35,563 nucleotides of DNA from an uncultured Bacillota bacterium. GTDB lineage: Bacteria > Bacillota_I > Bacilli_A > Izemoplasmatales > Hujiaoplasmataceae. Positions 9,984-35,563 of the stretch are shown here, piece after piece. Both the position numbers and the translations under genes were made by a program. Position 1 is the stretch's first letter. Each line of letters starts with the position of its first letter. The notes under the pieces are model-generated. The model was not told the DNA's origin, ran no database searches, and saw only the letters and a list, made by a program, of their open reading frames with translations. The stretch covers positions 1-35,563 of the forward strand of contig CALMFM010000211.1 in the NCBI GenBank assembly GCA_937862575.1, read 5' to 3'.

Positions 9984-10289
9984 ATGAATTTCAAAAAGAT
10001 TCTGCAGGAGGAAGACTGCAGAAGGAATGTCAATGCATTCGTAAATTACTACAACGCATACAGCTACTGGGACCAATGTGGAACTACAAAGAATCAAGAT
10101 AACAGAAAAAACGAATTACTAGGCACCAAACCGGTTTTGATTAAAAAAAGCGAAGCAAAGGCACCAGAAGAGCTTAGCTTGAAACAACAAAGACATTCTT
10201 TCAGTAAAACCTTATTTTCGCACATCTTCCATCATCACAAAAAAGCGCGGAATGCTAATCTGCTAGAACCCTTATCGATTGGTCGATAA
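9984..10289 (+). CDS. Unknown 101-residue charged protein
   Basis: I do not recognise this protein. It starts MNFKKILQEEDCRRN, has an aromatic stretch NYYNAYSYWDQ near residues 20-31, a Lys/Glu-rich middle and a basic His-rich end with IFHHHKK. There are two Cys (12 and 32), no signal peptide and no membrane helix. The ATG at 9984 is preceded by GGGAGGG, the strongest ribosome site nearby; a TTG at 9960 would lengthen it without support. A second open frame of 56 codons (9932-10102) overlaps its first third. The gene stands alone and ends before a hairpin. Confidence 0.6.
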   Translation: MNFKKILQEEDCRRNVNAFVNYYNAYSYWDQCGTTKNQDNRKNELLGTKPVLIKKSEAKAPEELSLKQQRHSFSKTLFSHIFHHHKKARNANLLEPLSIGR

Positions 10290-10318
10290 CTAATCGTTGA
10301 GTTCAAGATTAATAAACA

Positions 10319-10356
10319 GGAGTCTTCCATCATTTGAAGGGATGGCTCCTTTTTTG
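10319..10356 (+). terminator. Terminator after the 101-residue gene
   Basis: GGAG pairs with CTCC and CCATC with GATGG, giving an interrupted stem, followed by seven T. An alternative CTTC/GAAG pairing competes in the middle. Confidence 0.7.
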
Positions 10357-10421
10357 TAAATCAAAATTACTATTAAACTTATTTTTATTTTCTAAATCCA
10401 GATGATAATATCTCCATATTT

Positions 10422-10430
10422 TGGTATAAT
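10422..10430 (+). promoter_or_regulatory. Extended -10 promoter of the GGDEF membrane protein
   Basis: TGG directly before a perfect TATAAT (10425-10430) makes an extended -10 element. No clear -35. It lies inside the longest open frame, so the protein start must be downstream. Confidence 0.6.
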
Positions 10431-10515
10431 GATTAAAAGAAATATGGACAAATGTCAAAATAATTATTTGAATTTAGCAGGAAAGACAAGACATGAATTA
10501 GAGGTATGCAAAGAT

Positions 10516-11577
10516 ATGATTGATAAGATAAAGCAGATTTTTCAAAATTTTCTAGCAAAATACAACGAACAAGATGGCAGAAGAGCTTTGATACTCTTCT
10601 ATTTCCAGCATGTTTTGATAGTAATATTGATTTCGCTTATCGCATTACTTTTGGCTCTACATTACGACAATGAGGTGTTCTACCTTTCGATGATAATTAG
10701 TCTTTTGGTTATCATTATCGTTGCCTTAAGATTTAATCTTGCGGGTAAATACAAGATTGCGTCTATCATCACCATGATCAGTGCTACGATTGGCCCATGG
10801 CTATCGATAATTTTCGATGAATCGGTTCGAGCTGGCGATGTAATTCCAATGATATACATCGTATTGATTGTACATTTAAGTTCTATTTTCTTTTCACTAA
10901 GAACTACCATTCTTTTGGCGATTGTTCAATTCATAGGTGTTACCGTCTTATGTTTTACAAGCCCTGAGTTATTGGCACAGAATCTTCCAAGCCTTTTCTC
11001 ATTCTTCATCATTGCTTCAGTGCTTGTTGTATTGGGAAGTTATATAAACAAAAAGCAGATTGAACAGATTGAAGACCAAAATCTGAAATATCTGGAAAAA
11101 GATATTGAGATGCGAGACTTGTTGATACATGACCCAATGACAAATTTATACAACAGAACTCATTTGAACGATATCATGCAAAACGAGAACGCTTTGAAGA
11201 ATTACAGCGTCTTCATGTTCGATATCGACGGATTGAAAAAGATCAACGACAAATTCGGACATCTTGAAGGCGACAATCTGATAATTAATGCCGCAAACGT
11301 TATCAAAAGATGCTTTAGAGAATCAGACATGGTGGGCAGAATCGGCGGCGATGAGTTCATCGCCGTAGTATATGGAGCCGATTTGAAATTGACCCAAGAA
11401 ATCCGCGATAAGATTCACTATGAAGTGGAAGCCTATAACAAGAATTGTTCTCACAAACATCTCATTCTGAATCTCTCTTGTGGCTATGCTATATCAAGCA
11501 TCGAGAAGGTTAAATTCGAAAACCTCATGAGAATTGCGGATGACAGAATGTACGAAATGAAGAATTCCAAGAAATAA
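10516..11577 (+). CDS. Membrane-bound diguanylate cyclase (GGDEF)
   Basis: About 353 residues from the chosen start. Some six hydrophobic segments occupy roughly residues 22-175, followed by a short coiled linker (KKQIEQIEDQNLKYLEK) and one GGDEF domain. The active motif GGDEF is intact at 277-281, and the allosteric I-site RESD is present at 268-271, so product feedback is expected, unlike the first gene of the window. It would convert two GTP to cyclic di-GMP at the membrane. The open frame begins at 10402, but the promoter -10 at 10425 rules that out; the ATG at 10444 would leave almost no leader, so I choose 10516, which has GAGG upstream. The start is the uncertain part, the function is not. 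Confidence 0.85.
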   Translation: MIDKIKQIFQNFLAKYNEQDGRRALILFYFQHVLIVILISLIALLLALHYDNEVFYLSMIISLLVIIIVALRFNLAGKYKIASIITMISATIGPWLSIIFDESVRAGDVIPMIYIVLIVHLSSIFFSLRTTILLAIVQFIGVTVLCFTSPELLAQNLPSLFSFFIIASVLVVLGSYINKKQIEQIEDQNLKYLEKDIEMRDLLIHDPMTNLYNRTHLNDIMQNENALKNYSVFMFDIDGLKKINDKFGHLEGDNLIINAANVIKRCFRESDMVGRIGGDEFIAVVYGADLKLTQEIRDKIHYEVEAYNKNCSHKHLILNLSCGYAISSIEKVKFENLMRIADDRMYEMKNSKK

Positions 11578-11595
11578 AGAAAGAGATCATAAAAC

Positions 11596-11624
11596 AAACA
11601 GGTTCAGCAGAGCCTGTTTTCTTT
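11596..11624 (+). terminator. Terminator after the GGDEF membrane protein
   Basis: AAACAGGTTC pairs with GAGCCTGTTT (one G-U) around AGCA, followed by TCTTTT. It could also serve the convergent lipoprotein gene. Confidence 0.8.
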
Positions 11625-11641
11625 TAAATTTGATTTACAAA

Positions 11642-12253
11642 CTATATTGAAGGAGTCAATAAAGGAATCAAATATTCACCATCAATAAAGCCAGAAGACA
11701 AAAGGTTGGCTACTGGGACGAATTCTCCATCCACTTCCATAAAGAGAATATGTTCTTCAAGACAACCGTTGGCAGTATATTCATACTCTTCGCCATCTAT
11801 AGTAAAAGTCTCCGTGCCCATCTGATCACATTCGCCTCCGGCATATGCGTAAACAACTCTTCCCATAATATGGAAATCAAGCCAGTAATAGTCGGTTTCA
11901 TCAGAGGATATCTCTTCTGGATGGCGTTCTAGTTGAACCATCAGAGGCATCAATGATTCGATTGTTATAAATCCTTCATTAAGAGCGTCAAGTAGGTAGA
12001 CATAATCTCCATCATGAATGATGAAGAATGTCATGGCCGGACTGCATCCTTCAAATACAAATCCATAATTGAAGGTTTCTCCACTATAATAGACATCTTC
12101 ATAATATGTATTGCAAAAAAGTCCTTTATGTTCTAACTCATATATATAATATCCATCCACTTGAGTTTCACTGAATATCTGATAATCTTCAGGTGAATTT
12201 GCACATGATAACAGTAGAAAAGGCAATATAAGAACAAGTATAATCTTTTTCAT
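11642..12253 (-). CDS. Small acidic lipoprotein
   Basis: 203 residues with a textbook lipoprotein signal: MKK, a hydrophobic core and LLSC, giving lipidated Cys17. The mature part is rich in Asp, Glu and Tyr, has three further Cys in its first two thirds (CNTYY, EGCSP, GGECDQ) and a fourth near the end (NGCLEE), and looks like a beta-rich extracellular domain. I recognise no family. GGGAGGTG precedes the start. It stands alone, convergent with the GGDEF gene, and the minus-strand TATAAT at 12274-12279 probably drives it. Confidence 0.8.
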   Translation of the reverse strand: MKKIILVLILPFLLLSCANSPEDYQIFSETQVDGYYIYELEHKGLFCNTYYEDVYYSGETFNYGFVFEGCSPAMTFFIIHDGDYVYLLDALNEGFITIESLMPLMVQLERHPEEISSDETDYYWLDFHIMGRVVYAYAGGECDQMGTETFTIDGEEYEYTANGCLEEHILFMEVDGEFVPVANLLSSGFIDGEYLIPLLTPSI

Positions 12254-12273
12254 AGATGCACCTCCCTAATCCC

Positions 12274-12279
12274 ATTATA
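12274..12279 (-). promoter_or_regulatory. -10 box of the small lipoprotein gene
   Basis: A perfect TATAAT on the minus strand about 20 bases before the start codon. No good -35 is visible 16-18 bases further up. Confidence 0.45.
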
Positions 12280-12398
12280 CTACCTTTGATATAAAAATGC
12301 ATATTAGCGATAAGCCATATGAAGGCCTAATAGAATGATTTTTTGAATAAATTTAGACAAATTGGCTAATTTGACTGAAAAAAAACAAAGTTTCAAGT

Positions 12399-12404
12399 TA
12401 TAAT
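12399..12404 (+). promoter_or_regulatory. -10 box of the GNAT-like gene
   Basis: A perfect TATAAT about 50 bases before the start. TTGACT at 12371-12376 is 22 bases away, too far to be the usual -35. Confidence 0.4.
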
Positions 12405-12454
12405 ATAAAATATGAAATAATCCACTAATAACTAAAAGCGAGGAGAGAATGATT

Positions 12455-13576
12455 ATGGCTGTAGAAATCAAAGTTGTCACCACAAAAAAAGATGTTAAGA
12501 AATTCATGGAATTCGCGGATATACTATATAGAGACGAACCTAAATACATCCCGCCGATTTTTTCGGATGAGATGAAATCCGCAGATCCTAAATATAATCT
12601 GAATCTTGAATATTGTGATTCCATATTATTGTTAGCATATAGAGACGGAAAAATAGTAGGAAGATTAAGAGGCGTAGTAAATAGAAAATACAATGATAAG
12701 AACGGACTTAAGCACTTAAGATTCAATCACTTCGATGTCATTGATGATATCGAAGTATCGAAAGCTTTATTTACTCGTTTGATTGAATGGGGTAAAGAAC
12801 ACGGCATGACGGAAATCAATGGACCAATCGGATTCAATGATCTCGACAAGCAAGGTCTGCTTATCGAAGGATTTGATTTGGAAGGTATGTTCATTACTTA
12901 CTATAATTTCCCTTATCATATGGAACACTTAAAACAAATGGGATTTGAAAAGGATGTTGACTGGGTTGAATACCGCGTCCACGTTCCAACAGAAATCAAT
13001 CCACGTATTACCAAAATATCGGATAGATTACTGGAAAGAAGTAATTTCTCCATTAAGAAAATTACCAACAAAAGAGAACTGAAACCTTACTTGTATAAGA
13101 TATTCGACATTTACAATGAAGCTTTCGCACCGCTTCACGGCGTTGTCGAACTGACCAAAGGTCAAATCGACCAATATGTTAATCAATATCTGCCAATCAT
13201 CAATCTTGATTTCTTATCTGTTATTGTCGATAAGAGTGATAATGTAGTTGCTTTTGGTTTGTTAGGACCTAGTCTGAATGAACCGATGAGAAAGATACGA
13301 GGCAAACTCTTCCCATTCGGATTCATTACATTGTTAAGAAGCTTGAAACGCACAAAGGTATTGGATATGTATCTAGTAGCTGTAAAACCGGATATGCAAG
13401 GCTTGGGACTTAATTCAATACTGATGAATGACATTACTAATAACGCAATCAGAAACAAGATACTTTATGCGGAGACCGGACCAGAATTGGAAGACAATGA
13501 CAAGATTACAAGTTTCTGGAAGAATTATGACGCCGAACAAGTCAGACGCAGACGATGCTATATTAAGAAAATCTAA
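12455..13576 (+). CDS. GNAT-fold N-acetyltransferase-like protein
   Basis: 373 residues belonging to a widespread bacterial family usually annotated as GNAT acetyltransferase, with two GNAT-like halves. The N-terminal half has the RDEPKYIPPI and INGPIGFNDLDKQGLL signatures. The C-terminal half has VKPDMQGLGLNS (the acetyl-CoA pyrophosphate loop) and ends with a Trp-Lys-Asn-Tyr and Arg-rich tail ending RRRRCYIKKI, typical of this family. Cytoplasmic; substrate unknown. ATG codons occur at 12449 and 12455; AGGAG at 12441-12445 is too close to the first, so I take the second. Single-gene unit with its own terminator. Confidence 0.85.
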   Translation: MAVEIKVVTTKKDVKKFMEFADILYRDEPKYIPPIFSDEMKSADPKYNLNLEYCDSILLLAYRDGKIVGRLRGVVNRKYNDKNGLKHLRFNHFDVIDDIEVSKALFTRLIEWGKEHGMTEINGPIGFNDLDKQGLLIEGFDLEGMFITYYNFPYHMEHLKQMGFEKDVDWVEYRVHVPTEINPRITKISDRLLERSNFSIKKITNKRELKPYLYKIFDIYNEAFAPLHGVVELTKGQIDQYVNQYLPIINLDFLSVIVDKSDNVVAFGLLGPSLNEPMRKIRGKLFPFGFITLLRSLKRTKVLDMYLVAVKPDMQGLGLNSILMNDITNNAIRNKILYAETGPELEDNDKITSFWKNYDAEQVRRRRCYIKKI

Positions 13577-14147: not shown

Positions 14148-17033
14148 TTAATTTATTGGAGAAACTCTTACTACTTCACGTTCCACATATACAGTGTCAA
14201 TTGTTACTACTCCATCTACTGATATAACTCCCGATATGTCATGAACGAAGTTATCTACGCCCTTAAAATACAACGTTCCATCATAATCTACAATTAGCTC
14301 ATTTATCGCATTTATCAATAAGCCTTCAGTCAGATTCTCTGAATCAAAGTAGTAGAAATATTCTGTGGAAAGACTATCGTTCAATATCAATTTAAGAATG
14401 GCTGTTTTGTCTCCATTTATGGCGATGAAAGAATCACCTGATATTTGAATAGTGTCCATATTAGCCAAATTAGTGTAAGTAAGAAGGTATTTATCTTCAG
14501 TGACGTCTATTTCAATGATTACATTATACATGGGACTAAAGGCTGTGTTATTGTATATAAGAAATAGATTTTCGGTAAGTTCGACTAAATCGATTGACTG
14601 GTCGGTCAAGATTCTTGGTTGAAGGTAATAAGTATAATATTCGATATTTGAAATAGTGAAAACAGGAACGAATTCTCCAGAAGGCAATATATCTCCATAT
14701 TCAAATGAAACAGGTATGTAGACGTTATTTGAATAATACTCGCTGGCTATGTCAACTCCAAATTCATTTAGTATCTCAAAAGTCTCGGTTACGATTATAC
14801 ATCCCTCCTCATCCCTACAGTACAATAGGTCACTAGTAGATGTCGGCTGGGTTTCTGGTTCAAATACGATGCTCTCGATAATCTGGTCTCCTTGATTATA
14901 CATGACTTGCATATCGATCAACATAATTAATTCAGGTGGTTCATTGCCTGAATCTATAAATACAAATATATTACCCATAGTATTGTCTGTTAGAGCAGTA
15001 GTACCCGTATAATTAATTTGAGTCTGACTATTAAAAGTATATGTAATTGTAAATGGTGGCAGTGGATCTGCAGGAGTTACTGATACTGTTGTATTGGCTT
15101 CGGCAAATAAAGATCCATCTTCATACAAGAAAATGTAGGTGACGTCATAATAACATATGGATTCGGTACAGGCTGGTCTTGCGGTCTCATAATCGCCTAA
15201 ATCAGTCAAGGTAAGATCAGCTGACTTGATTATTGAATCTCCTTCATAATATTCGATAGCCACCGCTCCATTCAATCCTTCACCATAAAGTACTCCATAT
15301 TGGTCATACAGTTCATATAAAATATAATTTCCATCACACTTTTCTTCTTCACAAAGCGAATCCATGACACCGAGTTCCAGGTTTTCATGATGAAGCGTGC
15401 CATCGCTGCCAACATAATATAGCAACAAGGTATCGTAACCTAATTCAGTCACATATTCAGTAGTATTTTTCATAAAGAACAATCTTCCATCTACAAAGAT
15501 AAATGAATGTAAATTGGCGGAATCAGTAATTGTTTTCAAACCAGACACAGAAGAATACACCTGCATATTTCTACCGGACTCCAACGGATTGTAAATTATA
15601 TTTCCGGTTTCAGGATCTCGGATGATTTCTGAATTAGTCATTGTAAAACCTGAACGAGTAAGATTGAGGTATTCTTCCACAACGATTTCCTCGGTTTCGA
15701 GATCAAAAGACATTTTCATCAGAATATTTTCCACTTGAGTATCACCTTGAACAGTCTTTATAAAGTACAGTTCACTCTCGCCAATTGCGAATCCCCAAGT
15801 TGATAGTACATATGTCTTGTTTTGGCGATAATCCCAGTTAAAATACTTACTTACAATTTTACTGACCAATCTTTCGGCTAGTGGAGTAAGAGCGTTATCC
15901 GCAACATTTGCATAATAATCTGTATAGTTAACTGTTCTAATATCTTCGATATATAAATCAATCTCAAATTCATTAAGATAAATAGGATTGCCTTGACCAT
16001 CAGTAACCGGTACGGCTCTATCTTCATAGACAAGATTCCCATTATTATCTCTTACTTCTTTCTCGATGATATCGTATTTCTGTTGATTTGTATCAGGATC
16101 AAGAACCGGGTTTCCGTTATTATCGAACAAAGGCACCTTATAATATTCGACTTTCACCACATTTTGAACAGCCGTCTGAATAGGACCTTGAGTGAAAATC
16201 AGTTGATTTCCGTCTGCGTCTAATACCGGAACTTGAACTTCGTCATAGATTAAATCTCCATATTCATCCAGTACCGGATCACCGAATTCATCGACCCTCA
16301 ATATTTCTTGAGTCTCATAGATTGGTTCGTCAACAGTCACGGTTATATGGATTGTTCTAGAATGGTTTTCTGTCTCCGAATGATAACTTTCTGAAAAATC
16401 AAAGGTTTTGGTCGGGAACATCTTTCCGCTTTCATTGTGAATTATATAGATTCCGCCTTCAGACAAGGAATCGTAGACTTTTGTCATAAAGGAAGTAGAG
16501 CTATCATACTGATCAGGATGAACCTCGAACACTACGACAGTGTAATCACCCATAACGTCTAGTGTCAAAGGGTTAGCCGAGATGTTGACAAAAGTTCCTT
16601 CTCCATTCATAAAGTCGACAGCCTCAAAAAAACCTTCTTCAGTTAATTTAACAATGATGTTCTCAGCATTTTCCGTTTCTGTCAAAAGAGCCATCTCTTT
16701 GAGGATGTCTGTATTATATCTAGTTGAACTAACTGTTGATTGCTCATAGATATCGATAGGGATAACGGCCAAACCAACAGAATCACTAAGATCAGCAAAA
16801 TAGTCAACCATTAGGGTATCGGCCCCATAGATATTTGCATCTGTTCCTTCACTTTCAATTGAAATGGATTCTTCAATGTCATCACCATAGACAATACACT
16901 GTCCGTCGATAACGACGAAATTTTCTGAACCGTCGCACAAGTCCATCAACTCACTAGATACTTCAGAATCGCTACAACCAAATAAAGCAAGCATCATAAG
17001 CGAAAAAAATATATACACAAATGTCTTTTTCAT
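14148..17033 (-). CDS. Large lipoprotein with Asp/Gly/Asn repeats
   Basis: 961 residues. The signal peptide ends in LFGC, so Cys20 is lipidated and the protein sits outside the membrane. Residues 30-240 hold a first domain with a DLCDGSENFVVIDGQCIVYG stretch. Residues about 247-355 contain repeated units with a D-x-x-G-[DN]-[PLQ] core (EFGDP, EYGDL, ADGNQ, NNGNP, NNGNL, GQGNP), each followed by a short strand. The remaining 600 residues look like many beta strands, possibly propeller-like blades (recurring DGRLFFMK, DGSLFAEA, DGTLYFKG), with cysteine pairs at CxxxxxC and CRDEEGC. No enzyme motif. AGGAGAG precedes the start. It is alone in its unit. Function unknown; adhesion or envelope structure is possible. 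Confidence 0.8.
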   Translation of the reverse strand: MKKTFVYIFFSLMMLALFGCSDSEVSSELMDLCDGSENFVVIDGQCIVYGDDIEESISIESEGTDANIYGADTLMVDYFADLSDSVGLAVIPIDIYEQSTVSSTRYNTDILKEMALLTETENAENIIVKLTEEGFFEAVDFMNGEGTFVNISANPLTLDVMGDYTVVVFEVHPDQYDSSTSFMTKVYDSLSEGGIYIIHNESGKMFPTKTFDFSESYHSETENHSRTIHITVTVDEPIYETQEILRVDEFGDPVLDEYGDLIYDEVQVPVLDADGNQLIFTQGPIQTAVQNVVKVEYYKVPLFDNNGNPVLDPDTNQQKYDIIEKEVRDNNGNLVYEDRAVPVTDGQGNPIYLNEFEIDLYIEDIRTVNYTDYYANVADNALTPLAERLVSKIVSKYFNWDYRQNKTYVLSTWGFAIGESELYFIKTVQGDTQVENILMKMSFDLETEEIVVEEYLNLTRSGFTMTNSEIIRDPETGNIIYNPLESGRNMQVYSSVSGLKTITDSANLHSFIFVDGRLFFMKNTTEYVTELGYDTLLLYYVGSDGTLHHENLELGVMDSLCEEEKCDGNYILYELYDQYGVLYGEGLNGAVAIEYYEGDSIIKSADLTLTDLGDYETARPACTESICYYDVTYIFLYEDGSLFAEANTTVSVTPADPLPPFTITYTFNSQTQINYTGTTALTDNTMGNIFVFIDSGNEPPELIMLIDMQVMYNQGDQIIESIVFEPETQPTSTSDLLYCRDEEGCIIVTETFEILNEFGVDIASEYYSNNVYIPVSFEYGDILPSGEFVPVFTISNIEYYTYYLQPRILTDQSIDLVELTENLFLIYNNTAFSPMYNVIIEIDVTEDKYLLTYTNLANMDTIQISGDSFIAINGDKTAILKLILNDSLSTEYFYYFDSENLTEGLLINAINELIVDYDGTLYFKGVDNFVHDISGVISVDGVVTIDTVYVEREVVRVSPIN
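15969..16295 (-). repeat. Degenerate protein-level repeats in the large lipoprotein
   Basis: At least six short units with a D/N-x-x-G-D/N core followed by a hydrophobic strand occur at irregular spacing over about 110 codons. They are recognisable as protein, not as DNA repeats. Confidence 0.5.
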
Positions 17034-18092: not shown

Positions 18093-19895
18093 TTACTTAA
18101 TCGTATAAACGAAGAAAGTACCTAGATTATACATATCGTTGGCCGATATTTTTCTGTTCTTTAAATCTTCAACCATTTGTTTGAATTTCTCGGCTGGAGT
18201 TAATTCTTTGGCTTCAGTTACGATATTGACTTCCATAACAGTGTTCTTTTCAACTGGGATGTATTCCACCCAGTTGACAGGTACTTGATGGTTTCTGCCA
18301 TCGCCACCGAAGACCCAAATGATGTCGGTTCTGTTCACTGTCTGATAGCCATATGCTGTAACTTGGATTGTATCACAGTTCTTATCGCTTTTAACTACGG
18401 TGGTCTTCAGGATATTCTCTGTTTGCGATAACGGATGTTTGAATTCGTTCGCATTCATCTTATTGGCTACTTTTTCATGTTCATAGAAGCTTACATAACT
18501 ATTATACAAGTCTTTGTATATATATTCATGAGGTTTTTGTTGCTGATATAATGGAATTGCGAAGATTGGAGCGAATGCGAAGTAGACTGACTTGAAATAC
18601 TCATCATTGTAGCCGATGAAGTCTCTTTTCATCGCTTCATAATCATATCCGGTAAATGAACCCGGCTCTCGTTCCATGTTGATTCTTGCCAAATGTTCAG
18701 GGTAAATATAATTTATCATATTACGTTTGACGAAGTCGAAGTCATCTCCATAGGCTATTTCTTTGTCTTTCATCAAATCAAGCATTTGTTTTTGTGCCAA
18801 AGGTGTGAATAACAAGCGGAATTGAACTTCGTTATTACGGTTTTTAGCTCCCCAGAGAACTTCAAACTCTGAGTTTGCCATTACTGTGTAGTTGGCTCCG
18901 TTCATTGTACTTTTTTCCGAGGCTCTGTTCAATTTCTTGATATCCTTATTGACTACACGGTCAATTTTCTTTTGGTCCATTAATTCAGCGTCGGAGTCTT
19001 GTCTTGAGAAGAATAGGTCAGGAGCCGCTTCATTTCCATAAATAAGGTATGTTGAATTACTGTAGTATGGACAAGGTTTTGTTACAGTAGCTGTTAAAGT
19101 TTGTGAATGGTATTCGGTATACGTTTTTCCGTTGATTGTGGTTGTGGTCGTCCATGTAATCACTATGGAACCGGAATATGTTTTGGTTCCCAACTGGTGG
19201 ATCAAGTCTTTGCAGAAGAAGAAAGGATTTCCATACATATCGCCAGATTGGACGAATAATGTCGAACGGTTTTTGTCTAGATTTGGCTGGTAACCGAATT
19301 TGTTGATTAGGTAATCCAATCTACGACTGTCAAACATCTTGTCCAAGATGATTTGAGGTAGTGTTTTCTTGAACAGTTCAATATGCATGCCTCTTTTGAA
19401 CAAGGCGTTCAAAGGAGCCATTTGTTGGGTTGCCTTGGTCTTGAGTTCACTTATTTTTCTATCCAATTCTGCCTTGGCTTGTTTTAATTTTTTTGTCTTT
19501 GGCACTATGCTTTGAGTGATTATGACAATAAATAATATGATCAAAACACCGGAACCAATTGCAATATACAAATAAGGAGTCATAAGTGAGAATTCGACAA
19601 TTTGATAGATGCTATATCCTATTCCTGCTAAACCAACTATTATTAAGAAAATTAAAAAACCCTGTGTTGATTGCAATTTCCTAATTTGCTTTGCTTCTTC
19701 ATTGCTTTCGGCTTGCAATTTTTTAATCTGTTTGACGGTTTCTTGGTTCTCAGGGATATTTATCTTGGACTCATCGACCATTTTATCAAAGTACTCAGAT
19801 GCATTCTGGTGATGTTTTTCCTTAAAAACATCCTTGTAAGAAACTAGAGGATCATATATATAAGTGCTATCGTTGTTCAATTCATTGGTTACCAT
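18093..19895 (-). CDS. 600-residue membrane protein partner of LemA
   Basis: I do not recognise a named family with certainty; by position and shape it resembles the large membrane proteins encoded beside lemA (DUF3137-like in other bacteria). From the ATG at 19895, residues 1-77 are acidic/helical, with two hydrophobic segments at about 78-100 and 107-130, then a Lys-rich coiled coil (131-160) and a large soluble domain of 440 residues with a Thr run near the ITWTTTTTINGKTY segment. The open frame extends back to 20120, but ACCTCC (GGAGGT on the coding strand) at 19902-19907 is placed for 19895, and the upstream part is the structured leader. Transcribed with lemA from the promoter at 20157-20185. 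Confidence 0.82.
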   Translation of the reverse strand: MVTNELNNDSTYIYDPLVSYKDVFKEKHHQNASEYFDKMVDESKINIPENQETVKQIKKLQAESNEEAKQIRKLQSTQGFLIFLIIVGLAGIGYSIYQIVEFSLMTPYLYIAIGSGVLIILFIVIITQSIVPKTKKLKQAKAELDRKISELKTKATQQMAPLNALFKRGMHIELFKKTLPQIILDKMFDSRRLDYLINKFGYQPNLDKNRSTLFVQSGDMYGNPFFFCKDLIHQLGTKTYSGSIVITWTTTTTINGKTYTEYHSQTLTATVTKPCPYYSNSTYLIYGNEAAPDLFFSRQDSDAELMDQKKIDRVVNKDIKKLNRASEKSTMNGANYTVMANSEFEVLWGAKNRNNEVQFRLLFTPLAQKQMLDLMKDKEIAYGDDFDFVKRNMINYIYPEHLARINMEREPGSFTGYDYEAMKRDFIGYNDEYFKSVYFAFAPIFAIPLYQQQKPHEYIYKDLYNSYVSFYEHEKVANKMNANEFKHPLSQTENILKTTVVKSDKNCDTIQVTAYGYQTVNRTDIIWVFGGDGRNHQVPVNWVEYIPVEKNTVMEVNIVTEAKELTPAEKFKQMVEDLKNRKISANDMYNLGTFFVYTIK

Positions 19896-20150
19896 TTTTA
19901 CACCTCCAAAATAAAAACAACTCATCAATAAAATGTACCAAGTAATCACAGCTGCACATCCTGTATGTACGGATGTATGTCGATTATTTGAGATGCATGT
20001 CGATGAGTTGACTATGTCCGTTGGACTTGCTTCTGGGTGTTTCTTCATAATAATCTTATGAAGTTTTGAAAAACATGATTTACCCGATTGGGTCAAAATA
20101 ATGACTGTGTCACTGTGCATGAAATCAAATTTGACTATGAAATCAATACA
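19896..20150 (-). promoter_or_regulatory. Long leader of the LemA operon able to fold
   Basis: About 250 bases lie between the predicted transcription start and the first gene. Several pairings are visible: CTTCATAA/TTATGAAG (20043-20063, loop of 5), GTCC/GGAC (20016-20026), ACCC/GGGT, ACATCC/GGATGT (19956-19976) and a 9-bp closing stem CAACTCATC/GATGAGTTG (19918-19926 with 20002-20010). On the RNA the right arm of that stem is followed directly by UUUUUAUUUU and then the ribosome site, so it could act as an attenuator. I match it to no known riboswitch class. Confidence 0.4.
19973..20004. repeat. Direct repeat in the LemA leader
   Basis: ATGTATGTCGAT (19973-19984) recurs as ATGCATGTCGAT (19993-20004), 11 of 12 bases identical, 20 bases apart. 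Confidence 0.5.
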
Positions 20151-27585: not shown

Positions 27586-30500
27586 ATGAAAAAAATTGCT
27601 ATAGTCTTATTCCTAACCATTTTGGGAGTCTTATTCTTTGAATTTAACATGCAAATATATGCTGAAGAAGATATCATCGGCTCTTACAATATGATTGGAA
27701 TAGAAAACTATGACTACGAATTAAGGCTAGAGGCAGTCAAACGTAGCCAGACTTTTGCTTTGGACGAAGAAAAAATAAGTTTTTATATGCTTGGAGGTGA
27801 CCTCGTCAATCAAAGTAATGGCTACTATGAATTTATTGAAAGGGATTCGGATTTAGGCTTTAAAATAGTTTTTATATCTCCTGAGGCAGGTAGATTAACC
27901 GGTGATGATTATCAAACAAAGAATTTCTATCCCGACTTGAATTCAATATTAAGAATAATTAATGCCGATAGTCTTATTTATAGATTTGTTGAAGAATCAT
28001 GGCAAGTCGAGATTGTGGATGACGACAATGACCTATTATTGTATTATGAAGAGAAAGATGGCACAAGAACGCTTTTGGAATCCGCTAATGATCCCGAATA
28101 TTCGGATGAGCAATATATCATCTCATTGGATAACTATACATTGCATAAGGAATTCAGTCATTTCGAGATGGATCATGTCTTTTCAGTTAACAGTCCCCTA
28201 AATATTGCCTTTGGGTATTCCAAAATTACTTTTAAGTCTGAGGAAATTATGTTTAGAACCTATGAAACCAGGTTATCCAAGGCTAATGAATCGGATCATA
28301 TAGAAGTTACAAGAAGGCCTTCTGATACTCTAATTGGAACAGTATTGAGGTTTGGATCTGATAGCGATGAAGGTGATAATTTGGCGATAGTTCAATCTGT
28401 GGATGAAGCCAACAACAAGATATATATCAAATACGTCAATGTATTATCATATAATACCCATGATGAAGGAACTTGGTTAAGAGCTTTTAATGATTATACA
28501 AACGGTACTGTATATGCCAATGAATATCCCAAAGTATATTTAGAACCGACATTTTGGGCGGTTGAAGAATCAGCTTTGCAGTCATTGATGGATTTCATAA
28601 CTGAAAAAGATCCATCCGGTATGTTATCGGATGTTACAGTCGAACTTGAGGATGAAGATGCTTTTGGTTATAAATTGCAGGACGTCACTTATTCTCGTGA
28701 CGGATTAAACTTCACTGGGGGTTTTAGCGGAGCATTCTATGTAGGATTTGAGTGGAATATTTTTGGTTGGTCGGTAGATGTAGGTCCTGTTAGATTAGAT
28801 TATGGCTCAGCCATGAGCGCTTTAGCCGATCAGATTTTAAGAATTAACACTTATAAAGTTGAAGCATTTAGATTTTATTTCAATCCTAACATTTTTGAAT
28901 CATATGCCGACTGGAAGATGATTAGTTTTAATCCGCCTTCAGTCTTTCCACTGACTTTCAGGCTTTATTTCGATAAAGAGTTTGAACTCATCGGTGGTAA
29001 TGTCAGATTCAATCTACCGGGGTCTGGTATCCCTTTACCTGGCGGGTTAATCTATATTGACAATATTGGTGGCGGGTTCATGTGTCCCGAGACATACGAA
29101 GTAGGAGCTAGATTTCAATCCTATGAAGGAGGATACGGTTTTCCGCTTTGGAACGCCGACGTCGACATGAGATTGGCACTAGATCAAGATTATCTCTATT
29201 TAACTGGAAGAAGTTGGTTCTTTAACAAAACCATAAGCATTGGTAATTTCGATGCGCTTGTATCCTGGAGTTACACGGAAGGCAAACAGTTCAAAGGGGT
29301 TGAAATACACGGTCAAACCGGTATAGGAGCATACAAAGTAAATGCCATTATTGATTTGACTTTCAAATTCAAGAAATACAAATCGGACGGAGAAACAAAT
29401 ACTTATATAGGAGGTTCTGGCAGCGCTTCTGTTGAAGTGTTTGGCTATACCTTTGCCGGAGTAAAGATTTCCGCAAATACATCAAGATTCCGAGGTAGTG
29501 TCAAAGTGCCAGTCATTGGTACAAAATCATTTAGTATTTATTATGAAGATGTATTAGAAAATATAACCAGTCTTGCATATATGGAAACTGCTTACGGCGG
29601 AGTCGCCAGATTGATTAACGAACAAGGCAATATGATTGTGTTGATTCCTGAGGCAAGAAAGTTAATTCAGCCAACCAATATTATCTCTTTAAGCACAAAC
29701 ACACAGGCAACCATCTTGCAACTGGACGATTTTATATCAGAAGCCGCCATTACAATAGATTACACAGGTGAGTTGGACACGGTGACGGTTGAAATGCCAG
29801 ACGGTTCGATACTGCCTGTAGAAATTGCCAGCGAAAGCACAGTTCCTGTTGAAGGCAAACTATATGCAATGGATTATGAGATAGCCGATGGCGTGAGACA
29901 ATTATATATTCAATTATTGGATGCCGATTTGGGTGATTACCAAGTTGAATATGGAAACACTGTAGTTCAAGATGTCTCCATTTATGAAATAACACAACTT
30001 CCGGAAATCGATAACTCGGAAATAATCTCCAATGTTGTAGACGATGAGCTTACATTGAGTTGGAATTTGACAAACGAGATACCGGAAACTGAGTATCATT
30101 TGACTCTGGTTTCTTTGGATGATCAAGACAATATTATAGAAAGGTATCCGATATATGAAGATGTGGTTATCGATTCAACCGATGAAATCGAAGAGAGATA
30201 TGTAGACTCTAGAGCTTTGCTTATCGATGGCACTTCATACGAGTTAAAACTAAAAATGCCTGAAAACTTGCCCTTAGGAAGGTATGCGGTTATCTTGGAA
30301 GGTGTTCTTGTTGATTCCGAAAATGAAAATCTTTACGGTGAAGCCGTAATTTCTCAGGCTTTTACTTATTCAGGAGTATCATTGTTGGCTACCCCGGACA
30401 ATCTACAGATTGAATACATCGGAAACGGTCAAAACAATATCAGTTGGTCTGATGACAGTGAAGTATCATATTGGTCTATCTTGGCAATGGACGCCTCTGG

Positions 30501-31983
30501 CAATTTGGTTGATAGTTTTACTGTCACAAGAGAAGAAATCCTTAATGGTGGGCTAATTGATGATTCCTCGGGTAGCGACTTGGTTAGTTTGGTCACTTCT
30601 ATCGGAAACAGTGACCAAACCCCTTATGTGTTTACGGCTTTAGCTTATGATACAACTTATTATTTCACAGTAGTAGCTCATCAAGAAAACACGATTATTT
30701 TATCTGACCCTTATGATTCGATCTTAAACATTATTGATATAGGAATGGTTATAGCCGGTCAAAATGAAGGAACGGTTACTTATTCTGCATTTAGTGACAT
30801 CATATCTGCTCAATATGACAGTCCGAATCATTTTGATACCGTTTTGGAGATTTATGAAGACCCGGAAGAAGTCCCGGTTTCAGAACATGAATTGAACCAA
30901 ACCCCTGAATCGAATTTGGATTATGAATATGATATGGAAGAAAACACTGATACCGAATTCTTACGTCAATCATATTCAGAAACTTTGGTTTTTAACACAT
31001 CAGTATTTGGATTAATAAGTCTAGTTCCTAACCAAGAAATCATCGGATTCGGATTAACTGTGTTACGTTCCGACGGTTCAACATTAATTGATATTCCGAC
31101 GCTGGAACTCTCATTGATTACTGATTCTGCAAACTGGTTCACTTTGCTTGCTACTTTGAATTCGGGAATTTATGATTTTACTCCTGAGGAAATAGATTTG
31201 ATATTAGATATCTATAGTAGCGGAGCGATTTCGGTAGGCGATGATTTGCGTCTGAACATCGACTTCAATCTATTGGAGACTTCTTGTATAATTGACACTA
31301 TTGCAGACGATAGATACTACCTAATGCTTGATTTTGTCAATGCCAGTCAAGATGAGACAATCTATAATTTCGAGATAATTTTAAGTCGATTTGTTCCTTC
31401 ACTATTTCTTGATTCTCTTTTGGAAGAGGATGGACTTATTAATATAACAGGTTTGGTAAATGGAGCTGCTTCATTGACTATTAACGAAGTGGAAGCGTCA
31501 ATCATCAATGGATATTTCGAAGTATCTGTTGAACTTGATGACGGGATTATTGATTATGAAATCGTTGATATTCTAGGAAATATCTATTCGGGAACAATCA
31601 CCATCGATGATGATTTATTCGCTCCGACAATAGAACTTTCGTCTTATGAGGATATAACTATCTATGTTGGAGAAAACTATGAACTTCCAACCTGTTCGGT
31701 TACTGATAATGTCGATTCGAATTTGGTTTGCCAAATCAGTGGAACCCCGGATAACATCTATATCACCGGTGAATATACCGTGGTCTTCAAAGCTATTGAT
31801 TATGCAGGTAATTCCAGTGAAGAAGTTTCGATTCTTTTGACCATATTGATGCAAGATAATCCGACACCATCACCAGTCAATCCATTGACACAGGTTCTGA
31901 CTTACATATCAATTACTATCGGTGTAATAGCCACTGGGGCTGGAACTTTCTTGTTATGGAAGAAATTCCGAATATTGCATTGA
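27586..31983 (+). CDS. Very large surface protein with Ig-like end and C-terminal membrane anchor
   Basis: 1465 residues. A signal peptide (MKKIAIVLFL to about Ala26) exports it. The body is almost entirely beta-rich: residues about 380-680 are strand-heavy and Gly/aromatic-rich (FSGAFYVGFEWNIFGW, SGSASVEVFGYTFAGVK), about 936-1045 look like a fibronectin-III module (TPDNLQIEYIG, ISWSDDSEVSYW), and about 1346-1421 form an HYR/DUF5011-type Ig domain (VTDNVDSNLVC, YAGNSSEEVSI). A Pro-rich spacer leads to one membrane helix (about 1434-1457) and the basic tail KKFRILH. There is no LPXTG motif, so it is held in the membrane. Acidic overall. It stands alone. A role in adhesion or as a giant envelope protein is inference. 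Confidence 0.85.
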   Translation: MKKIAIVLFLTILGVLFFEFNMQIYAEEDIIGSYNMIGIENYDYELRLEAVKRSQTFALDEEKISFYMLGGDLVNQSNGYYEFIERDSDLGFKIVFISPEAGRLTGDDYQTKNFYPDLNSILRIINADSLIYRFVEESWQVEIVDDDNDLLLYYEEKDGTRTLLESANDPEYSDEQYIISLDNYTLHKEFSHFEMDHVFSVNSPLNIAFGYSKITFKSEEIMFRTYETRLSKANESDHIEVTRRPSDTLIGTVLRFGSDSDEGDNLAIVQSVDEANNKIYIKYVNVLSYNTHDEGTWLRAFNDYTNGTVYANEYPKVYLEPTFWAVEESALQSLMDFITEKDPSGMLSDVTVELEDEDAFGYKLQDVTYSRDGLNFTGGFSGAFYVGFEWNIFGWSVDVGPVRLDYGSAMSALADQILRINTYKVEAFRFYFNPNIFESYADWKMISFNPPSVFPLTFRLYFDKEFELIGGNVRFNLPGSGIPLPGGLIYIDNIGGGFMCPETYEVGARFQSYEGGYGFPLWNADVDMRLALDQDYLYLTGRSWFFNKTISIGNFDALVSWSYTEGKQFKGVEIHGQTGIGAYKVNAIIDLTFKFKKYKSDGETNTYIGGSGSASVEVFGYTFAGVKISANTSRFRGSVKVPVIGTKSFSIYYEDVLENITSLAYMETAYGGVARLINEQGNMIVLIPEARKLIQPTNIISLSTNTQATILQLDDFISEAAITIDYTGELDTVTVEMPDGSILPVEIASESTVPVEGKLYAMDYEIADGVRQLYIQLLDADLGDYQVEYGNTVVQDVSIYEITQLPEIDNSEIISNVVDDELTLSWNLTNEIPETEYHLTLVSLDDQDNIIERYPIYEDVVIDSTDEIEERYVDSRALLIDGTSYELKLKMPENLPLGRYAVILEGVLVDSENENLYGEAVISQAFTYSGVSLLATPDNLQIEYIGNGQNNISWSDDSEVSYWSILAMDASGNLVDSFTVTREEILNGGLIDDSSGSDLVSLVTSIGNSDQTPYVFTALAYDTTYYFTVVAHQENTIILSDPYDSILNIIDIGMVIAGQNEGTVTYSAFSDIISAQYDSPNHFDTVLEIYEDPEEVPVSEHELNQTPESNLDYEYDMEENTDTEFLRQSYSETLVFNTSVFGLISLVPNQEIIGFGLTVLRSDGSTLIDIPTLELSLITDSANWFTLLATLNSGIYDFTPEEIDLILDIYSSGAISVGDDLRLNIDFNLLETSCIIDTIADDRYYLMLDFVNASQDETIYNFEIILSRFVPSLFLDSLLEEDGLINITGLVNGAASLTINEVEASIINGYFEVSVELDDGIIDYEIVDILGNIYSGTITIDDDLFAPTIELSSYEDITIYVGENYELPTCSVTDNVDSNLVCQISGTPDNIYITGEYTVVFKAIDYAGNSSEEVSILLTILMQDNPTPSPVNPLTQVLTYISITIGVIATGAGTFLLWKKFRILH

Positions 31984-32036: not shown

Positions 32037-33581
32037 TCATTCCTCATGTATTCTATTACAATGCGGACAGACTATCTCACCTTTGTTATTTATCTTGGTG
32101 ATATTTCTAAAAAACATGAGTGATTCAATTTGTCTGTCGTAATACCAATATTCGTCTTGTTTGAAATTTGATTTGTTAATAACATGCTTTTTTAAATGAG
32201 TGTCGTCGGTGTAGAAGTACGTTTTTCCGGTTTCTTCGCAGACGTTTTGTTTAATTTGCGTAAAGCAGTCTTCACACTCGTAAAAGTCATGATACTTGTC
32301 CTTATGTAGTCTGCTCCCGCAGAATGGACATACTTCCCTAGTTGTGTCAGAATAGATCATTCCGCGCAGAATTATTTGTTGGACTCTTCGGAAGGAATCG
32401 ATATCCTCCATACTGATATATACGTCGTCTCTTTCAAGATAATCGTCATCGAACTGGTTGACTACGACCACTTCGTCGACTTTATAATCCTTCTTGTATT
32501 TATTTAGAGTCTCGATATAATAGACATCACTGGTAATAATGATTCCATATGGTTTATCCTTTGTGAATCTTAGGATTATCTCATTGTCGTCATTATTGGT
32601 AATATCCAATTGCCAACCTTTAAAATTAAAGGAGATTTCCAGTGAATTCAAGTTGATTTTAGCTTTAGGGTCGATGATGAAATTGAAATGTCCAACTGCG
32701 AAAATTGTAAGAATTTGCACATACATCAAATAGTTTCTTCGAAGTGATTCATAGTCGAAATCAGCCGGCTTTTCTTCAATCTTAATTTGGTTGCTCAACA
32801 AAAGTTTATAGGTTCGATAGATTAAACGATAATCTTTTTGCATCAAGAAGATATTCGTCTTCTTAAGTGAGAGATTTCTATTTCGCTTGAGATTTCTTTT
32901 ATAAATCGGCTTAATTAATCGCGGATTGATTGTTTGGCTAATAAATGATAGCTCACTTAACATTTTTTTGGATAATGTCAGATATTGACTGAAATCTCTA
33001 ATATATCCAGTATGTAACTTACCTAAAGCCAAGAAGTAGTTCAAATGATTGACCTTCTCCAATAAATTGAATTTCAAAACAGAATTGGCATATAACATAC
33101 TATTCAAGGTTCGGCTGTTTTTTCTGATCCAAGATAGAATATCATCTATATAATTACAAAAAATCACATTTTCATAAATGCTATAATCGTCTTCATATAT
33201 TCTAGTTAATAATTTTCGGGGTTTAACACCCTTTTTTGTTATATTGGATACATATTGAGCGTGGTTCGCCAAATGAAGTAGCGTGTTTTGATTTATCACT
33301 CTGGCGTTCTCAACTGGGAATACGTCATCGGTGTCTTTAAGAATAATTATCGGCTTACTGAAAATCCTTTTGATTGCGGGAGTTGTCTTTTTGATATTGA
33401 AAATCATAGTCTCAAGTTTCTCGAAATCAAAATCCGGTTCGACCGAAAATAATGTCATATCGTGAACCACATAGTAGTCGAACTCGATATATGACATTAT
33501 TTGGTGATTATTCGCAAATTCCTTAATGCCTTCCAGAAGCGAAGAAAAGCGATTGTATTCCTCTATTTTTGATCTGTCCAT
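32037..33581 (-). CDS. McrC/DUF2357-like zinc-ribbon protein, apparently lacking nuclease residues
   Basis: 514 residues, encoded 13 bases after an McrB-type ATPase and surely its partner. Residues about 125-165 (PRKLLTRIYEDDYSIYENV and following helix) match the helical region of DUF2357/McrC-like proteins with their Tyr-Glu-Asn mark. Residues about 285-390 would correspond to the PD-(D/E)XK nuclease, but I cannot find the PD and (D/E)xK residues there; NEIILRFTKDKPYGIIIT stands where DAKYK is usual. The C-terminal 100 residues carry two zinc sites: Cys418/Cys421 with Cys436/Cys439, and Cys505/Cys508 (CPHCNRIH). No signal or membrane helix. The family link is moderate, the loss of catalysis is inference. 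Confidence 0.65.
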   Translation of the reverse strand: MDRSKIEEYNRFSSLLEGIKEFANNHQIMSYIEFDYYVVHDMTLFSVEPDFDFEKLETMIFNIKKTTPAIKRIFSKPIIILKDTDDVFPVENARVINQNTLLHLANHAQYVSNITKKGVKPRKLLTRIYEDDYSIYENVIFCNYIDDILSWIRKNSRTLNSMLYANSVLKFNLLEKVNHLNYFLALGKLHTGYIRDFSQYLTLSKKMLSELSFISQTINPRLIKPIYKRNLKRNRNLSLKKTNIFLMQKDYRLIYRTYKLLLSNQIKIEEKPADFDYESLRRNYLMYVQILTIFAVGHFNFIIDPKAKINLNSLEISFNFKGWQLDITNNDDNEIILRFTKDKPYGIIITSDVYYIETLNKYKKDYKVDEVVVVNQFDDDYLERDDVYISMEDIDSFRRVQQIILRGMIYSDTTREVCPFCGSRLHKDKYHDFYECEDCFTQIKQNVCEETGKTYFYTDDTHLKKHVINKSNFKQDEYWYYDRQIESLMFFRNITKINNKGEIVCPHCNRIHEE

Positions 33582-33594
33582 GTATCATTTCACA

Positions 33595-35563
33595 TCATTC
33601 GTTATCAAGTAATTTAATGAAGTTTGCGCATTGGTTAAGGTTCAATTTGCGGAAGTCCATTTCCAGTTTTTCCTTATCGTCGATAGTCTTGACTTCCAAT
33701 TTGGCAACGACTTTACTCAAAAGGATTTTTTCAATGGCTTCGCTCTCCACATTACCATCTGGGAAACAGGCCTTATAAATATTTACAAAGTCTTCTATTT
33801 GATTGAGAATTCTATTGCCAAACGAGATATTATAAGGTGCGAGAAGTACCTCTACGCTCTTTATCAAAACGCTGTTTTCAGCATCAAAATCACCTTTTCC
33901 CTTGGCTTCAATGAAAAGGCTGTTTATGGTTTCATAATCATAGTACTTCTTCGGAATAGGTTCAGTGAAGTTGCGCACTTTAGGTGCACGTTTCGTGAAA
34001 TTCATCGTGTGAGCACGGTCATAAACTTTATCAGAAATAACAAAGGTTGACTCGTCGCGGTTGGCTGTCCCGATAAACCAGACATTGGACGGAACTTTTA
34101 ATGTGTTTCCGTTATCTAGCGCTAGATACTCAATCTCCTTATCCTTTTCTTTTCTGTTTAATTTAATGTTGATTAATTTGATTTCTCTATGACCTTCTTC
34201 ATTTTCCATTAGCGATAGAAAGTCGGAGAAGTAGTATTCGATTCTTGATAGATTCATTTCATCAAGAAGAATGAAGGTAAATATTTCTTGGTTCAAAGCG
34301 GCTTTATATAAAGCCAATGTGAACTTTTTAGGAGTATATTTCATGGAGAACTCATTATAGTATCCCAATAATTCGTTCTTGTCTTTCCAAGAAGATTCAA
34401 CCTCGACAATTTCACAGTTTCCGAAGACAGCTTCAGAGAAAATCTTAGGCAAACTGGTTTTCCCGGTACCGGACATTCCTTGTAATATTGAAAGCTTGCT
34501 GGCACCTATTCCGGCCACGAAAGTAGCGATATCTTGTGGTGTATAAGATAGATGAAGTCTTGAATTTCTAGCGTACTCCAACACGAAATTGACAAGCTCG
34601 TTCAATGAGGTTTCTTTTACTATAGAAGCCTTACGATTTTTCAAATCAGCCTTGTAAAAATCTGTTTTTGAATCGATATCTGTAAAAGCAGGACAAGGAT
34701 CGAAATGTTGGAATGTATCATCTTCAATCTCACCGGTCGATGAACCATCGCCGGAAGTTAAAGCATTGTTGAGCGACAACTCCGCTTCCAACACTGTCAA
34801 ATCATCTCTGTCAAAAGCTTTTCTGACAAACATCAAGGTAAGAACACCAAGAGACGCGATAAGAGCGTAGACGGCATTAGTGCTTACGATGTAATCAAAG
34901 GAATAACCACCAGGCAAACTGATTCCGTAGAAAGTAAGAAGATCCATTATTATGACTTGATTAATTTCTTTGGCTATTTGGAAATAGTAACCTGAGATAC
35001 CTATTATAAACACAAAGAAAACATTAACTGCCGCAGCTAATTTGACGATGGAATTATATTGTTTGTATTTTGAAAGATATCCGGAAAGTGCAACCACCAA
35101 GGTAAGTCCAACAGACATAAGCATTACTGCAAGGACAAAGGCAATTAATCGATAACCTGTGTCCAAACTGGCATAGTCCCTTAGTATTGCAAAACCGGTC
35201 ATATTTATGTTGTACAAGTAGGCACCGGAAGCAACATCTATCCTTACTATTGGCAAGAAAAGCATTGCGACAGTAACTCCTGTCAACAATATTACAAGTA
35301 ATAGAGGTTCAATCTTAGGATATTTGATTTGATTGATCTTTTCGGTAAAATTACCATCGATGCTATATTTACCCTTGAGTATTGAATATGCCAGTATCAC
35401 TGCCAAAAGTAAAAACAAAGGAATGAATGAGACCGTCTGAACAACCTCGCCACCTAATGTATAATATACATCCATTGCCAAACCGCCAAGGAAGAATATC
35501 AAAGTTGCGGCGAATGTGAAGCCTAACAATGTTTTTGATTTCTTGATGAAGTTCTCTTTATTG
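33595..35563 (-). CDS. Membrane-anchored McrB-type AAA+ ATPase (5' end outside window)
   Basis: At least 655 codons; the frame stays open to the window edge, so the start lies outside, probably only a codon or so away (NKENFIKKSK reads as a natural N-terminus). Numbering from the TTG at 35529: six membrane helices fill residues 5-236, a linker follows, and from about 310 comes an McrB/MoxR-clade AAA+ module. Walker A is GMSGTGKT (351-358), then the McrB mark WKDKNELLGYYNEF, Walker B LLDEMNLSR (Asp423, Glu424), sensor GTANRDES (487-494) and DRAHTMNF. McrB is GTP-driven in E. coli and part of type IV restriction; the six-helix anchor here is unusual. It forms an operon with the McrC-like gene. 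Confidence 0.85.
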   Translation of the reverse strand, partial: NKENFIKKSKTLLGFTFAATLIFFLGGLAMDVYYTLGGEVVQTVSFIPLFLLLAVILAYSILKGKYSIDGNFTEKINQIKYPKIEPLLLVILLTGVTVAMLFLPIVRIDVASGAYLYNINMTGFAILRDYASLDTGYRLIAFVLAVMLMSVGLTLVVALSGYLSKYKQYNSIVKLAAAVNVFFVFIIGISGYYFQIAKEINQVIIMDLLTFYGISLPGGYSFDYIVSTNAVYALIASLGVLTLMFVRKAFDRDDLTVLEAELSLNNALTSGDGSSTGEIEDDTFQHFDPCPAFTDIDSKTDFYKADLKNRKASIVKETSLNELVNFVLEYARNSRLHLSYTPQDIATFVAGIGASKLSILQGMSGTGKTSLPKIFSEAVFGNCEIVEVESSWKDKNELLGYYNEFSMKYTPKKFTLALYKAALNQEIFTFILLDEMNLSRIEYYFSDFLSLMENEEGHREIKLINIKLNRKEKDKEIEYLALDNGNTLKVPSNVWFIGTANRDESTFVISDKVYDRAHTMNFTKRAPKVRNFTEPIPKKYYDYETINSLFIEAKGKGDFDAENSVLIKSVEVLLAPYNISFGNRILNQIEDFVNIYKACFPDGNVESEAIEKILLSKVVAKLEVKTIDDKEKLEMDFRKLNLNQCANFIKLLDNE

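Follow-up and report, generated by a model that had tools for sequence, protein, structure and literature searches.

McrBC systems are known for cutting nucleic acids. Their motor, their activator and the coupling between the two are established biochemistry, as summarized in the main text of PMC11090510. According to the same text, an NxD motif defines the CoCoNuT/CoCoPALM branch of these systems, and where the McrC nuclease of a CoCoNuT is dead, as is often the case, partner nucleases make up for it. The only transmembrane McrB fusions that appear in this main text are the FtsB-like CoCoPALM proteins.

Here we describe two genes, A and B, at the right end of a contig from a draft genome of 1.89 Mb. 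The nearest named relatives of the genome are Acholeplasmataceae and other Tenericutes-type bacteria. The window, that is, the whole stretch of 35,563 nucleotides that was analyzed, comprises the entire contig. The sequences show that A spans the membrane several times and contains a complete NTPase domain of the McrB type, and that B resembles CnuC, carries zinc sites and is nuclease-dead. We found no description of the architecture of A in the main texts of the papers searched, PMC11090510 included. The pair is a membrane-embedded, nuclease-dead sister of the CoCoNuT/CoCoPALM systems and is probably in conflict with mobile elements.

The motor protein A and its partner B

Both open reading frames were verified (Table 1), and A runs off the end of the contig. 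In most relatives, A and B overlap by up to 35 bases and are otherwise a few bases apart. Because the reading frames overlap in most relatives, the two genes are probably translationally coupled.

Table 1. Features of the A/B locus, with positions in the window
Feature	Position	Strand	Basis
Gene A, NxD McrB-like AAA motor embedded in the membrane, 655 aa visible	33595..35562	-	ORF, relatives, alignment
Missing N-terminus of A, about 240 aa and about 6 helices	beyond contig end
Half of the polytopic membrane domain that lies in the window, six predicted helices	34825..35562	-	hydropathy; 11-12 helices in full-length relatives
Walker A, GMSGTGKTS	34453..34479	-	sequence; invariant in alignment
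Walker B, LLDEMNLSR	34243..34269	-	sequence; DEMNLSR invariant in alignment
NxD signature / sensor 1, GTANRDES	34048..34071	-	sequence; motif scan
A-B spacer, 13 bases	33582..33594	-
Gene B, McrC-like partner, 514 aa	32037..33581	-	ORF, conservation, tblastn, hhalign
DUF2357-like (McrC N-terminal) region with YEN motif	32787..33404	-	tblastn to DUF2357 proteins; hhalign to CnuC
Putative decayed PD-(D/E)xK-like region, F339-x-K341 replacing ExK	32349..32753	-	AlphaFold elements, conservation; presumed fold
Zinc site 1, CPFC...C..C (C418, C421, C436, C439)	32265..32330	-	invariant; zinc-ribbon matches
Zinc site 2, CPHC...H (C505, C508, H512), probably with C448	32046..32069	-	conservation

The gene for a 1,465-aa secreted protein, apparently membrane-anchored and with a weak match to a bacterial Ig-like domain, is convergent with B (27586-31983, +). 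An intergenic hairpin between the two genes (AAAAGGCT...AGCCTTTT) could be a shared terminator. Elsewhere in the window, PAS-GGDEF-HD and GGDEF proteins (71-2839 and 10402-11577, both +) point to cyclic-di-GMP signaling in an Acholeplasma-type genome. Two large proteins of 961 and 675 aa (14148-17033 and 18093-20120, both -) had no Pfam match at E 1e-4.

The McrB-clade motifs that had been noticed in A from its sequence (GMSGTGKTS, LLGYYNEF, LLDEMNLSR and GTANRDES) are all present, and their core residues were invariant in 18 aligned relatives. The signature is of the NxD type (NRD-E), with GTANRD or GTANKD found in 21 of 21 sequences by a motif scan. Pfam returned a weak AAA_5 match alone, and the PADLOC candidate-defense model PDC-M26A matched A at 1e-49. 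A search of PDB sequences with A and B retrieved no McrB or McrC.

The sequence-only reading had counted six membrane helices in A. Six are indeed visible in the window, but the count had to be revised for the complete protein, since complete relatives (889-923 aa, about 895) have 11-12 helices predicted by hydropathy; the six are therefore half of the membrane domain of A. The fusion to the motor, in turn, was upheld as a conserved feature, being kept in every relative. The membrane domain is the fastest-diverging part of A, and the motor shows about 80% conservation among relatives.

AlphaFold models of A and B were mediocre (pLDDT 62 and 68). With the low-confidence model of A, Foldseek gave LetA as the best match (E 1.6e-3), followed by weaker matches to TARP and claudin, and we take this likeness as a resemblance of fold at most. 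Three tandem four-helix repeats were suggested by the order of AlphaFold elements and by the LetA/TARP matches, but hhalign of the three segments performed no better than reversed controls and gave them no support in sequence. At one locus in a near-complete genome (L071, G173, 10223-12885), A is frameshifted just before Walker B, which may reflect decay, a sequencing error or a programmed shift.

For B, the proposed DUF2357/McrC-like nature was borne out by tblastn matches to annotated DUF2357 proteins on plasmids (E 2e-6 and 5e-7) and by profile alignment to CnuC of a CoCoNuT-like operon in MT835511.1 (hhalign 99.6%, E 7.8e-24; BLAST 1e-19 and 3e-9), although the Pfam model of DUF2357 did not match. 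The alignment to CnuC takes in the DUF2357 part as well as the DIxSFRR-CPxC zinc block at the C-terminus. Pfam detected weak zinc ribbons alone in B, and its sole matches among PDB sequences were ribosomal eL43 zinc ribbons. The two C-terminal zinc sites seen earlier were likewise well conserved in 29 sequences, with C418, C421, C436, C439 and C448 invariant and C505 and C508 conserved at 97%.

The middle part of B is predicted by AlphaFold to be alpha-beta-beta-beta-beta-alpha-beta-alpha, which is the order of elements expected of a PD-(D/E)xK fold. Since Foldseek of B was uninformative and returned no matches, this fold stays presumptive. Across the 29 sequences, we found neither a conserved PD-(D/E)xK triad nor an invariant acidic pair, in agreement with the earlier observation that these residues were not recognizable. 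K341 is the sole invariant residue of catalytic type in the core, and F339 occupies the position where ExK has its acid. The only highly conserved acid in the core, E370, lies outside any such motif. From the lack of an invariant acid pair and the replacement of ExK by FxK, the loss of nuclease function in B is well supported, as far as the sequence tells.

Distribution and neighborhoods of the gene pair

The pair is kept in more than 20 genomes, with B identities of 57-73%, far above chance. The two genes occurred together at every locus where the contig was long enough, and no conserved third gene, including any nuclease, was found beside them at about 27 loci. Full-length B was detected in 8 of the 34 genomes of the family and in 14 of 392 in a wider sample. 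A/B was missing from most relatives, near-complete genomes included.

The mean identity of B was 63% within the family (f1) and also 63% between f1 and f4, a group from another order of the same class, whereas that of rpoB dropped from 83% to 61%. B of the window is 67-70% identical to f4 copies versus 59-61% to copies of its own genus. In one genus (g34), the pair occupies three unrelated places in three species: beside DRT3, beside AbiE and flanked by beta-lactamase-like and aldo/keto reductase genes. The aldo/keto reductase gene has counterparts at other places in the remaining two species. An empty-site comparison in this genus was discarded, as one flank was found at other loci and the other flank was absent, which shows non-orthology only.

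Judging by this patchiness, by the unrelated loci within one genus and by the equal similarity across orders and within the family, we conclude that A/B spreads horizontally, with loss, and is not a core gene. An initial interpretation as a vertical core gene, based on the high conservation, was rejected on the strength of the rpoB comparison and the locus positions. In another genus (g125) the flanks of the pair are conserved; thus, the pair can also be inherited for some time.

A location in defense islands had been considered, and this was borne out for a minority of loci: a known defense system or gene adjoins the pair at 4 of the 27 (G194, L017, L071 and L022), whereas 22 have none close by. 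At G194, brxA-brxB-brxC-pglX-pglZ-brxL and a small lipoprotein-like gene precede A and B in the same direction. This region (L139/L078, G194:C1, about 99600-119300) holds a complete BREX system, in which pglX is split into pieces, and a gene of the RhuM type (PDC-S05), and it runs straight into A-B. DRT3 adjoins the pair at L017, AbiEi/AbiEii at L071 and a DUF262/HEC-06 protein at L022; at L011, SoFic lies two genes from the pair. For comparison, 104 proteins encoded at random positions in these genomes served as controls, and their listed PADLOC matches contained no BREX, DRT or AbiE. Cysteine desulfurase (SspA/DndA) and TnpB-like proteins (Cas12f model) were matched among the controls, and we judge these to be general paralogues. 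Few loci account for the excess of defense genes, and the neighborhood of the majority is ordinary. The membrane version was not found in viral contigs or in phage or plasmid records.

At one locus (L074, G315:C17, 106-10502), two TasA-like genes come immediately after the pair, and with them the genes for a SipW-like peptidase, a McrB-like protein with four helices and a McrC-like protein that carries a zinc ribbon. This possibly represents an intermediate between the A/B and CoCoPALM architectures.

Possible functions of A and B

The chances are about even that A/B is a mobile two-gene conflict module, likeliest directed against phages or plasmids, that derives from the NxD branch of McrBC and whose membrane part would serve as effector or anchor. 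This reading draws on the NxD motor with all catalytic motifs, the matches to CnuC and CnuB, the decayed nuclease of B with no conserved third gene to supply another, the patchy horizontal spread, the defense neighbors and the match to PDC-M26A. It has to be weighed against the majority of loci that lack a defense neighbor, the lack of a phage or plasmid carrier and the TasA/SipW genes with which CoCoPALM and the G315 pair are located. Of the two possibilities raised initially, a divergent defense system acting at the membrane or a housekeeping machine, the first fits the patchy distribution, the horizontal spread and the defense neighbors better.

By analogy with McrBC biochemistry, A would assemble beneath the membrane as a ring, on which B would dock with its DUF2357 stalk to stimulate hydrolysis. 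More speculatively, the CnuC-like domains suggest that B might use its zinc ribbons and inactive nuclease fold to sense foreign or aberrant nucleic acid, and hydrolysis might drive the membrane domain as an effector, either changing permeability or blocking the entry of nucleic acid. Since the nuclease is missing, we read the membrane domain as the effector that would replace the nuclease of other McrBC systems, which is the most economical guess. It is only tentatively that we propose the complete scheme, in which a nucleic-acid-sensing dead McrC drives a hexameric McrB GTPase and a 12-helix effector opens or remodels the membrane of the infected cell.

Alternatively, the pair could be a machine for envelope or surface-fiber assembly, with a motor that remodels or exports surface proteins (TasA-like fibers, SipW-type processing). 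We consider this possible, if rather unlikely. CoCoPALM paralogues mostly lie beside SipW-like and/or TasA-like genes, and the G315 pair has the same company. Surface genes likewise spread horizontally, so that the spread of A/B would reflect turnover of surface structures, and the fastest divergence in the membrane domain would also suit such a role. However, G315 is the sole one of about 28 pair loci with TasA/SipW genes beside the pair, and several pair loci adjoin defense systems. Further, B shares its zinc ribbons and nuclease relic with CnuC, whereas no CxxC zinc motif occurs in those CoCoPALM partners that were examined.

We regard as improbable a membrane-tethered nucleic-acid motor, in which the membrane domain serves only to anchor the ring where DNA enters, and B stalls or recruits an unlinked host nuclease. 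The precedent of CoCoNuTs, where partner nucleases offset the dead McrC nuclease (main text of PMC11090510), and the CnuC-like C-terminus kept in B argue for it, but the pair has no linked nuclease gene and a 12-helix domain exceeds the needs of a tether. A vertically inherited housekeeping machine made of McrBC parts would account for the strongly conserved motor, the conserved gene pair and the constant flanks in g125, but it is very unlikely given the absence of A/B from most relatives, a gene identity that departs from rpoB and loci that differ within one genus.

If a mobile conflict module is the correct reading, A/B would represent a branch that keeps motor and activator but has a large membrane domain where other systems have coiled coil and nuclease, and it would widen the repertoire to immunity that acts at the membrane. 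The module consists of only two genes and has relatives in Tenericutes bacterium MO-XQ (complete genome) and Paracholeplasma vituli, which makes it directly testable.

Comparison with known McrBC systems

With E. coli McrBC, the pair shares a McrB-type AAA motor and a DUF2357 activator encoded downstream. The E. coli motor has the NxxD motif, whereas A has NxD; it also carries a DNA-binding N-terminal domain, which A lacks and in place of which a membrane domain is present. Canonical McrC has an intact PD-(D/E)xK nuclease, whereas these residues are lost in B. Canonical McrBC, a Type IV restriction system, hydrolyzes GTP rather than ATP and restricts modified DNA. The PADLOC candidate PDC-M26A has the motor region in common with A, to which the match is mainly confined. 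In the papers searched, this candidate is not described, and nothing on CoCoPALM function or PDC-M26 was found besides PMC11090510 and its preprint. LetA/TARP-type modules have tandem four-helix units with an extracellular beta hairpin; A shows the weak Foldseek match but no support for repeats in its sequence.

CoCoNuTs share the NxD motor with A, and the motor of A is 40% identical to CnuB of the MT835511.1 operon. B resembles Type II CnuC in its DUF2357 region, inactivated PD-(D/E)xK region and CPxC zinc sites, but it is shorter than CoCoNuT CnuC. The CoCoNuT motor bears a long coiled coil where A has about 12 membrane helices. In addition, CoCoNuTs whose McrC is inactive encode a HEPN or other nuclease alongside it, whereas A/B has no linked nuclease or helicase. 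The operon used here (L113, MT835511.1, 36490-45916) encodes a helicase-like protein, a 535-aa protein, CnuB and CnuC, with a LexA-like repressor nearby. Its record is an unannotated, unverified 'Bacteriophage sp.' entry and may be a bacterial scaffold under a wrong label.

CoCoPALMs have a membrane-anchored NxD motor in common with A. The motor of A is 38-43% identical to CoCoPALM copies of the source genus, including one on contig C73 of its own genome. This locus (L003, G000:C73:1-6186) combines a one-helix NxD McrB-like motor and a McrC-like partner without zinc sites with a SipW-like signal peptidase and TasA/camelysin-like secreted proteins, and similar SipW/TasA neighborhoods were found at most of 20 further CoCoPALM-type loci. 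CoCoPALM motors carry a single FtsB-like helix and a coiled coil instead of about 12 helices, and their genes are linked to signal peptidase or pilus-type genes. In the tree, A-type motors form one clade (100/100) and CoCoPALM another (99/97), and the branching order among the A clade, CoCoPALM and CoCoNuT is left open due to long branches. Architecture, gene context and the tree thus rule out A/B as a member of CoCoPALM. If the proposed relationship is true, A/B would link CoCoNuTs with the membrane-bound CoCoPALMs.
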